Of a stretch of 39,596 nucleotides of DNA, positions 14,757 through 16,642 are shown one piece after another. The position numbers and the translations under genes were made by a program. How positions within the stretch are numbered: position 1 is the first letter of the stretch; the number at the start of each line of letters is the position of its first letter. The stretch is taken from contig CAIZLN010000152.1 of the NCBI GenBank assembly GCA_903933815.1, positions 1 to 39,596 of the forward strand, given 5' to 3'. Source of the stretch: an uncultured Solirubrobacterales bacterium. GTDB taxonomy: Bacteria > Actinomycetota > Thermoleophilia > Solirubrobacterales > 70-9. The notes beneath the pieces are model-generated. The model did no database searches and was not told where the DNA came from. It saw only the letters and a program-made list of their open reading frames with translations.

Positions 14757-15611
14757 GTGAACAGTCCGGAAACCGGTACAACCGGCAGCCAGCAGTCAGA
14801 CCCGGCAATGTCCGCAGACTGGCTCGGGATATGCCGACGGATCGTCAAACGCCAGCAGGTGCTTTTTGATGAGGCGCCGACGGTCGCTGCTCGCGATCAT
14901 TACGACGGCATCGGTGAGGGCGGCGACCACACCCTCGTCCTCGACCGCCTGTGCGAGGACATCGTCTTTGAGGAGCTGGAACAGCTGGCCGGCCAGGGTC
15001 CCGCCTTCACCGCTATCTCGGAGGAGCGTGGCCTGGTGGAGTTCAACGGTGGCGGGAGCACCTGGGTCGTCATCGACCCGATCGACGGCTCGCTGAACGT
15101 CCGCCGGACACTGCCAAACCACAGCCTCTCCGTGGCGATCGCCTCTGCGCCGAACATGTCTGCGGTCGAGTTCGGCTTCGTCCATGACTTCGGATCCCGG
15201 GAGGAATACTCGGCGCACTCCGGCCAGGGCGCATTTCTGAACGGCCGTGAGCTCAAGGTCGAGCCTGCCACGCAGCTGGAGCTGGTTGGGGTGGAAGGGG
15301 CAGAGCCCGGGGCCTTCCTGCCGATCGTCAAGAACCTGGTCGGCTCGGTCTACCGCTTCCGATGCGTCGGCTCTCTGGCGATCACTCTCTCTTACCTGGC
15401 CGCCGGAAGGATCGACGGCATGCTTTCCCCACACCTTTCGCGATCGGTCGACATCGCCGCCGCCCAGTTGATCGCCCGCGAGGCCGGAGCCCTTGTCGAG
15501 CTTGGCGAAGACGGCCTCGGGGAGGTCGGACTCGGTCTTGAACACCGCTTCACGGTCACTGGTGCCAGCAGCGCCGAGGGCCTCGCCACGCTGCTCGCCA
15601 GTCGTTCCTGA
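14757..15611 (+). CDS. Inositol-monophosphatase-superfamily phosphatase
   Basis: This 284-residue protein has the metal-binding core of the IMPase/FBPase/CysQ superfamily. It shows GGDHTLVLDRLCEDIV at about 55-70, SEERG at 88-92, DPIDGSLN at 107-114 (standing for DPxDGTxN) and RSVDIAAAQLIAREAGA near 229-245. These enzymes are Mg-dependent and Li-sensitive phosphatases acting on inositol phosphate, fructose-1,6-bisphosphate or 3'-phosphoadenosine-5'-phosphate. The variation does not let me choose between these substrates. It is divergent from the helicase-nuclease gene, with 77 bp between the starts. The GTG start is supported by a correctly spaced -10. Confidence 0.85.
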   Translation: MNSPETGTTGSQQSDPAMSADWLGICRRIVKRQQVLFDEAPTVAARDHYDGIGEGGDHTLVLDRLCEDIVFEELEQLAGQGPAFTAISEERGLVEFNGGGSTWVVIDPIDGSLNVRRTLPNHSLSVAIASAPNMSAVEFGFVHDFGSREEYSAHSGQGAFLNGRELKVEPATQLELVGVEGAEPGAFLPIVKNLVGSVYRFRCVGSLAITLSYLAAGRIDGMLSPHLSRSVDIAAAQLIAREAGALVELGEDGLGEVGLGLEHRFTVTGASSAEGLATLLASRS

Positions 15612-15792
15612 GGGAGCGGTACCGGCCGACTCGGATCCCTGAGTCAGGTCTTTCCAGGCCCGGACCCTGGTCCGGCTTTCCCGAACCAGCGCCTTGCGCA
15701 TGTCGACTCCTCACCGACCCGGTGCGTTTGAACGGATCTTTTCTGGCTCCCTGACACACCTGGTGTTGTGTGACGCTTATCCAATCCAAATC

Positions 15793-15806
15793 GGAACACA
15801 TGTTCG
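15793..15806. promoter_or_regulatory. LexA/SOS-box-like palindrome
   Basis: GGAACACATGTTCG contains perfect GAAC/GTTC half-sites with the four-base centre ACAT. It differs from the Gram-positive/actinobacterial LexA consensus CGAAC-N4-GTTCG at only the first base. It lies about 70 bp upstream of the H1-like protein gene. A T-A-N-N-N-T hexamer (TACACT, 15817-15822) sits downstream so that the box would cover its -35 region, as expected for a repressor site. The rest of the 263-bp gap after the IMPase gene shows no gene. Confidence 0.6.
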
Positions 15807-15816
15807 TATTCACTGC

Positions 15817-15822
15817 TACACT
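15817..15822 (+). promoter_or_regulatory. Candidate -10 of the H1-like protein gene
   Basis: TACACT lies 10 bp after the LexA-like box and would give a leader of about 45 nt with a Shine-Dalgarno sequence. TAGAAC and TAGTCT further downstream (15835-15851) are alternative -10 elements, so the assignment is tentative. Confidence 0.35.
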
Positions 15823-15874
15823 TCAAACATCCTTAGAACTAAGTAGTCTGATTTCGATAAGAAGGAGCATCACC

Positions 15875-16519
15875 ATGGCCGAGACAAAGACAAAAAAGAA
15901 GACCGCCGCGAAGCCCGCCATCAAGGCAACCGCGAAGAAGAAGGCCGCCGCCAAGAAGACCACTTCCAAGCCCCGCACCGCTGCCCAGCTGCGTGCCGAG
16001 GCCAGCGCCAAGGCCGTTCACGCCGCCGAACTCGATGCTCAGGCCGCCAAGACCCGCCTGGAGGAGATCGAAGAGGCCGCAGTTGAAGCAGCCCGGACCG
16101 CAGTCGACATTCCCGTCGGTGCAGCCCTCAACATCTCCGACCGCGTCGCCGAGCTGATTGAGCCGTGGACCGACCAGTCCTCCGCCGAGAAAAAGGTCAA
16201 GGGCTACCGTGCCGACCTGACCAAGACCTTCAAACGCGCCGAGCGTCGGGGCACCACCGCCCGCCGAAAGGCCACCCGCAAGGTCGCCAGAACCCGTAAC
16301 TCGCTTGAGCGTGAAGTCCGCAAGCAGCAGAAGACGGTCGAAAAGCAGATCAAGGCCACCAACAAGGACCTGAACAAGCAGATCGAGGCTCGCGTGGATG
16401 TCATGTCCAAGCGTGCCGAGAAGGCGCAGGCTGAAGTCAGCCGCATCGCCGAGGTTCGCGGCAAGAAGGCCCAGGACATGGTCAACCGCGTAACGGAGCA
16501 GCTCACCCAGCTGGTCTAG
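15875..16519 (+). CDS. Lys/Ala-rich histone-H1-like helical protein
   Basis: This 214-residue basic protein has an N-terminal 35 residues that are almost only Lys, Ala and Thr (repeats such as KKKAAAKKT), like bacterial histone-H1-like and HupB tails. Next comes an Ala-rich helix (about 37-80), a short ordered segment (DIPVGAALNISDRVAELIEPW), and then a long Arg/Lys-rich helix or coiled coil to the end. It has no signal peptide and no membrane helix. DNA binding in the nucleoid is the natural inference; a phasin-like surface role is an alternative. AAGGAG at 15862-15867 is a good ribosome site for the ATG. The upstream LexA-like box suggests DNA-damage control. Hairpins follow the stop. Confidence 0.78.
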   Translation: MAETKTKKKTAAKPAIKATAKKKAAAKKTTSKPRTAAQLRAEASAKAVHAAELDAQAAKTRLEEIEEAAVEAARTAVDIPVGAALNISDRVAELIEPWTDQSSAEKKVKGYRADLTKTFKRAERRGTTARRKATRKVARTRNSLEREVRKQQKTVEKQIKATNKDLNKQIEARVDVMSKRAEKAQAEVSRIAEVRGKKAQDMVNRVTEQLTQLV

Positions 16520-16531
16520 AACCCACTTAGC

Positions 16532-16593
16532 CCGGCCCCTCAGGAGAGGGGGTGGCCGGAGAAGCCTGCTGACCTCATAACCTCGTCAGCAGG
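16532..16593 (+). other. Two stem-loops after the H1-like gene
   Basis: CCGGCC (16532-16537) can pair with GGCCGG (16554-16559) around a smaller CCTC/GAGG stem. CCTGCTGAC (16565-16573) pairs perfectly with GTCAGCAGG (16585-16593) across an 11-base loop. Neither is followed by a T-run. They may protect the mRNA 3' end or be part of a small RNA together with the next hairpin. A C-rich single-stranded stretch (CCTCTCCTCCC) separates them from it. Confidence 0.45.
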
Positions 16594-16614
16594 ATTAGTA
16601 CCTCTCCTCCCTCG

Positions 16615-16642
16615 CCAACGGCCCCCTCCCAGGGGCCGTTGG
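16615..16642. terminator. Strong 11-bp hairpin between convergent units
   Basis: CCAACGGCCCC pairs perfectly with GGGGCCGTTGG around a six-base loop (CTCCCA), followed by TATTT on the plus strand. It lies between the stop of the H1-like gene and the end of the minus-strand sigma-factor unit, so it could terminate both. The T-tract is short, as is common for high-GC actinobacterial terminators. The 80 bp from here to 16722 show no gene. Confidence 0.5.

Follow-up and report, generated by a model that had tools for sequence, protein, structure and literature searches.

A LexA-type box in front of a gene for a very basic helical protein and a structured RNA element behind it in Solirubrobacterales

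The genes of the SOS response usually encode repair enzymes, error-prone polymerases and division inhibitors; a strongly basic protein resembling a histone tail is not known among their products. In a stretch of 39,596 nucleotides from an uncultured Solirubrobacterales bacterium (contig CAIZLN010000152.1 of assembly GCA_903933815.1; hereafter the window), the palindrome GGAACACATGTTCG at positions 15793–15806 lies upstream of a gene for a basic protein of 214 amino acids (15875–16519), both on the forward strand, as are the promoter and RNA elements described below. The source genome is a draft of 2.03 Mb in 168 contigs and, to our knowledge, the Solirubrobacterales, an order found in soil and water, have almost no experimental record. 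An initial annotation, made from the letters of the window, had read the palindrome as a LexA-type SOS box and the gene product as a damage-inducible nucleoid or DNA-coating protein. Sequence comparison makes control of the gene by LexA very likely, because the box is found across the order, occupies the core promoter and ranks with the sites of SOS genes in the same genome.

The closest described regulatory system is the actinobacterial LexA/RecA regulon of Streptomyces venezuelae, with the LexA consensus tCGAAC-N4-GNNCGa (PMC9380542). The present locus resembles it in the type of box, in lexA and recA as targets and in the position of the box in the promoter, and differs in that the basic-protein gene family was found, in a sample of the class, only in Solirubrobacterales; neither 'nucleoid' nor 'basic protein' occurs in the S. 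venezuelae paper (PMC9380542). Our literature search found no work on LexA in Thermoleophilia and no SOS-controlled histone-like protein of this type.

For the protein, the nearest counterpart by description is MLDS of Rhodococcus jostii RHA1, which binds lipid droplets and DNA, raises survival under ultraviolet (UV) light and affects the association of UvrA with droplets (PMC5504291). Both proteins have a helical part and a Lys/Ala-rich, histone-H1-like tail, and MLDS protects DNA under UV and starvation (PMC5504291). The likeness is one of description; moreover, MLDS is controlled by MLDSR through its own operator, whereas the gene studied here has a LexA-type box. In MLDS, the Lys/Ala tail is described as C-terminal, following the helical droplet-binding part. 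This MLDS/HBHA-type order of helices followed by a C-terminal tail differs from that of the window protein, whose tail is N-terminal (residues 1–35). A Lys/Ala-rich low-complexity tail and a high isoelectric point (pI) are also shared with the Lys-rich nucleoid proteins, namely Hc2, the Rv3852 family, the tails of HupB and HupS, and DdbA, but the window protein has no profile match to Hc2, the Rv3852 family and the like. Streptomyces DdbA has been reported to be expressed in sporulation and linked to compaction of the spore nucleoid, not as an SOS gene.

The box and the promoter

The LexA-type box CGGAACACATGTTCGT (15792–15807; 21.9 bits) contains the core GAAC-N4-GTTC at 15794–15805. It agrees with the consensus CGAAC-N4-GTTCG at nine of the ten specified positions, with G instead of C as the first base. 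The initial annotation had given a match at 13 of 14 positions; both the GAAC and the GTTC arm are indeed present, but that figure counts free positions. The bare palindrome GAAC-N4-GTTC carries no weight by itself and was dropped as evidence, since it is enriched neither in the window (0.72 copies expected) nor in the genome (41 sites against 40 for the reversed control). The stricter form GAACANNTGTTCG is rare, with 1–11 copies per genome against 0–2 for the reversed controls in 18 genomes.

A weight matrix made from the lexA and recA boxes of other Solirubrobacterales genomes was used to rank all 41 sites of the source genome. The highest scores belong to imuB-dnaE2 (25.6 bits), uvrA (23.5), lexA (22.8), the basic-protein gene (21.9) and recA (18.8), so that the box studied here ranks fourth of 41 and the rest of the top five are core SOS genes; these genes were named from reading the translations, and LexA and RecA from NCBIfam models. 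A sixth site (17.5 bits; L119:1206–1221, contig C100) lies across the start codon of a clpC-like gene; it is not at the position of a promoter operator, is probably due to chance and was set aside. The same was done with a 12.3-bit site at position 365 of the window, within an ileS-like gene, whose position is also unlike that of a promoter operator. The genome encodes both LexA (224 bits) and RecA (532 bits), and the translation of its LexA retains the Ala-Gly cleavage site and the Ser and Lys residues. The boxes of lexA (ACGAACACAAGTTCGC) and recA (CCGAACCTGTGTTCGA) have the same form as that of the basic-protein gene, a form also common to uvrA and imuB-dnaE2. Two checks proposed in the initial annotation, the presence of the same form at recA and lexA and a genome-wide search for it, thus came out in favour of an SOS box, the latter assigning the gene to an SOS set of five sites. 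A full GAAC-N4-GTTC, usually extended to CGAAC-N4-GTTCG, was found within 250 nt of lexA in 30/30 genomes of the order examined. A GAAC-N4-GTTC box is likewise present in most recA promoters of the order.

A third check, conservation of the box upstream of orthologs, gave the same answer. In the genus, GAACANNTGTTCG is present in 14/14 usable promoters, with invariant arms and free central bases. Across the order, 84 of the 96 homolog promoters have a box of at least 12 bits, in most cases 65–105 nt 5' of the start codon; of the four families examined, three have the box in most of their genera. The flanking background yielded 2 matches in 90,887 positions, or about 0.5% per 260-nt segment. 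These promoters are related by descent and the counts are not independent; nevertheless, the box persists in the three families although the surrounding sequence changes. Taken together, the rarity of the strict motif, the top-five rank among SOS sites and the conservation in homolog promoters set the box beyond chance. Strongly diverged homologs in three genomes (G019, G045 and G048) still have a LexA-type box and the RNA element described below. In genus g21, the homologs are preceded by two tandem LexA-type boxes (upstream of L162–L165, L176–L178 and L180) and have no 3' RNA element. Genome G001 has a further copy of the gene (contig C54, 2469–2817), which is shorter and also has a box, GAACATGTGTTCG, about 97 nt upstream.

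The box begins 23 nt 5' of the -10 hexamer TACACT in the window (22–24 nt in the genus) and spans the -35 region and the 5' part of the spacer, i.e., the core promoter, as the initial annotation had placed it. The hexamer forms part of an extended -10, TGC-TACACT (15814–15822), with TGCTACACT in 13/14 genus promoters. The assignment of the -10 is inferred from this conservation; a generic sigma-70 scan reported no promoter. Many other genera have TTTACAAAC-N4-GTTCG with a TATANT-type -10 behind it, an arrangement in which the left half-site seems to be combined with a TTTACA -35. A second palindrome, CTTAGAACTAAG (15832–15843), lies about 10 nt 3' of the -10, just beyond the transcription start, and had been overlooked in the initial annotation, as had the conserved RNA. 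It is of the TTAG-N2-CTAA type, is kept in most homolog promoters and occurs also in some that lack a LexA box; family f4 promoters without the box contain the related TTACTTSTAA. Translation is assigned to the ATG at 15875, which has an AAGGAG ribosome-binding site and matching starts in the homologs. The GTG at 15770 was rejected as a start because the box would fall within the coding region and the homologs begin at the ATG.

The basic protein

The protein has a pI of 10.4 and a Lys plus Arg (K+R) content of 24%, with 12 Lys among its first 35 residues. It is predicted to consist of a disordered Lys/Ala/Thr tail (residues 1–35) and two long helices (residues 36–93 and 101–213), according to an AlphaFold2 model with a mean predicted local distance difference test value of 74.7 and a predicted template-modelling score of 0.35. 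The earlier description of a very basic helical product thus holds. Homologs were found in 135/151 genomes of the order. In a class-wide sample of 150 genomes they are confined to Solirubrobacterales, and a search of genome contigs with the single protein matched only metagenome-assembled genomes of this order. The aligned homologs are all strongly basic (pI 9.8–12), and PVGAAL and ERRG are the best-conserved stretches. One homolog (L020 of genome G017) has an early in-frame TAA with box and RNA intact, which is either an assembly error or a pseudogene.

Searches of Pfam and NCBIfam assigned the protein to no family and gave only weak coiled-coil and charge matches. A profile search of the PDB returned weak matches to apolipophorin-III, ApoA-IV and an ice-binding protein, and little else. 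Against profiles of histone-like nucleoid proteins (Hc2, Rv3852 family, HU and Lsr2), the window protein has no match up to an E-value of 0.1; single homologs match the Rv3852 family (7e-4) and Hc2 (0.0037) weakly. The apolipoprotein A1/A4/E profile is matched weakly by 6/17 homologs (best 9.7e-5), and the polyhydroxyalkanoate (PHA) granule model TIGR01837 by 2/17, below its cut-off (best 0.0073), with no match for the window protein. The weak apolipoprotein, PHA-granule, Hc2 and Rv3852 matches are expected of a rod-like, charged helical protein with a Lys tail, and are taken as leads only. Composition and predicted shape fit a factor that coats or bridges DNA, which is our first choice for the function of the protein and which we consider slightly more probable than not. 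Of the damage-inducible nucleoid protein put forward in the initial annotation, the LexA control is strongly supported by comparison; the nucleoid role is suggested by these features, with no known nucleoid-protein family matched at cut-off.

The RNA element of the 3' untranslated region

Behind the stop codon, many homologs have a P1 stem, a 9-bp P2 hairpin, an anti-Shine-Dalgarno stretch and then a G+C hairpin. In the window, this element of the 3' untranslated region (UTR) occupies 16520–16613, with P1 at about 16530–16557, P2 at 16565–16593 and the anti-Shine-Dalgarno strand CCUCUCCUCCCUC at 16601–16613. A terminator-like hairpin, CCAACGGCCCC-CTCCCA-GGGGCCGTTGG followed by TATTT, was read from the sequence at 16615–16642, and the homologs have an equivalent G+C hairpin 3' of the element; a strict terminator scan did not report it, as it has too few T.

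The alignment comprises 40 sequences selected by the string CTCTCCTCC, whose invariance is therefore partly by construction, whereas the covariation of P2 is not. Pairing in P2 amounts to 96.4%, and compensatory changes occur at eight of the nine pairs. The covariation score is 0.574; shuffles give 0.258, and sliding gives no more than 0.137. By itself, the window copy has only a moderate folding advantage over shuffled sequences (z -1.88), so the case for the RNA rests on covariation. P1 was observed in individual folds only, and has GGAGAG in or beside its apical loop. The anti-Shine-Dalgarno stretch, AGUA(C/U)CUCUCCUCCCUC, is almost invariant. GGAGAG and CUCUCC are complementary, and the P1 loop may thus mask the anti-Shine-Dalgarno strand of the same RNA; both sides of this candidate pairing hardly vary, which puts it beyond the reach of covariation.

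A covariance model found a single copy in the source genome (16519–16614, E 1.2e-15). The copy of relatives is normally found directly 3' of the gene, and within the class-wide sample of 150 genomes the RNA is confined to Solirubrobacterales. Three copies (L243, L257 and L258, in G067, G070:C35 and G064:C52) are not directly preceded by a clear member of the protein family. Neither the window nor ten loci with the element gave an Rfam match at the gathering threshold, and the RNA is a previously undescribed structured element, absent from Rfam. ar14 (RF02344) and other C/U-rich anti-Shine-Dalgarno small RNAs (sRNAs) likewise have a CUCCUCC-type stretch and a terminal terminator hairpin; however, ar14 scores 17.8 bits against a cut-off of 58.8 and belongs to another lineage, and the element described here lies within the 3' UTR of an mRNA. 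A regulatory role of the RNA is possible, and we put it somewhat below an even chance.

Proposed mechanism and alternatives

We propose that the basic-protein gene belongs to the SOS regulon as a lineage-specific member. It would be held off by LexA dimers on the CGAAC-N4-GTTCG-type box, which overlaps the -35 region and the spacer; on DNA damage, RecA filaments would induce the self-cleavage of LexA, and the gene would be expressed alongside lexA, recA, uvrA and imuB-dnaE2. Its product, a strongly basic rod of two helices with a disordered Lys/Ala/Thr tail like that of histone H1, would most likely bind DNA irrespective of sequence and serve to coat, compact or bridge the damaged nucleoid. 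The 3' end of the transcript would form a conserved, folded RNA with an anti-Shine-Dalgarno strand, which may regulate the translation of its own or other messages. We lean slightly towards the combination of LexA control with a DNA-directed protein. The fuller proposal, that one LexA-controlled transcript, kept throughout Solirubrobacterales, delivers two effectors of the damage response, a histone-like DNA-coating protein and a new structured 3'-UTR RNA that lowers translation of chosen messages during repair through an anti-Shine-Dalgarno seed, is speculative and unlikely to hold in its entirety. If true, an order-wide SOS gene for a chromatin-like protein would mean that in some bacteria the damaged chromosome is remodelled or shielded within the core response, and the SOS response of this group would gain a post-transcriptional arm from the conserved RNA on that transcript. 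Conexibacter and Solirubrobacter are among the cultured relatives in which both ideas can be tested.

Several observations weigh against this proposal. The box is missing in family f4 (5/5 genomes), in genus g10 (2/2 genomes) and in a few single genomes, and LexA control is therefore not universal. The boxes of the genus have A or G, not C, as the left outer base, and many other genera have ACAAAC in place of CGAAC. As for the protein, no DNA-binding domain is recognised in it, and RNA, lipid granules and acidic surfaces are also possible partners of basic coiled coils. In three homologs that have both box and RNA, K+R is only 17–19%; this lower basicity weakens DNA coating as a shared function. 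The overlap of the box with the -35 region, the left arm TTTACAAAC of many genera, which may act as a -35, and the nearby second palindrome, which suggests another regulator, would also suit a site for a factor other than LexA or an unusual promoter of which the palindrome is a fixed part. This is nevertheless very improbable, given that the motif is the same as at the lexA, recA, uvrA and imuB sites of the same genome and the score similar, that the arms are invariant while the central bases vary, and that the boxes of genus g21 are in tandem.

Two further alternatives keep LexA control or are compatible with it, and concern the product. By analogy with MLDS, the LexA-controlled protein could act as a tether between the chromosome and lipid droplets or polyester granules and shield the DNA during damage, with amphipathic, apolipoprotein- or phasin-like helices on the granule and the Lys-rich tail on the DNA. 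The weak apolipoprotein and PHA-granule matches of homologs, the apolipophorin-III and ApoA-IV hits in the PDB search, and the droplet and DNA binding and improved UV survival reported for MLDS (PMC5504291) point in this direction. Yet all the profile matches are weak and could reflect a helical charge pattern, the window protein has none of them, its tail is at the opposite end from the one described for MLDS, and the genus is not known to make droplets; such a tether is our second choice for the protein and is improbable. A more RNA-centred explanation, in which the main conserved product is an SOS-induced sRNA that represses chosen messages through an anti-Shine-Dalgarno seed and the protein is secondary or a partner of the RNA, is compatible with the mechanism proposed above, and we regard it as doubtful. 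It draws on the compensatory changes in P2, the invariant CUCUCCUCC stretch and the terminator-like hairpin, on the retention of the RNA beside the diverged proteins of G019, G045 and G048, and on the extra or stand-alone copies in G064, G070 and G067. On the other hand, 13-mers complementary to the anti-Shine-Dalgarno strand are not enriched in the genome (51 against 47 in the control), genus g21 has the gene and LexA boxes without the RNA, and the selection of sequences by CTCTCCTCC accounts for part of the invariance.

The gene on the 5' side of the locus (14757–15611) belongs to the inositol-monophosphatase family.
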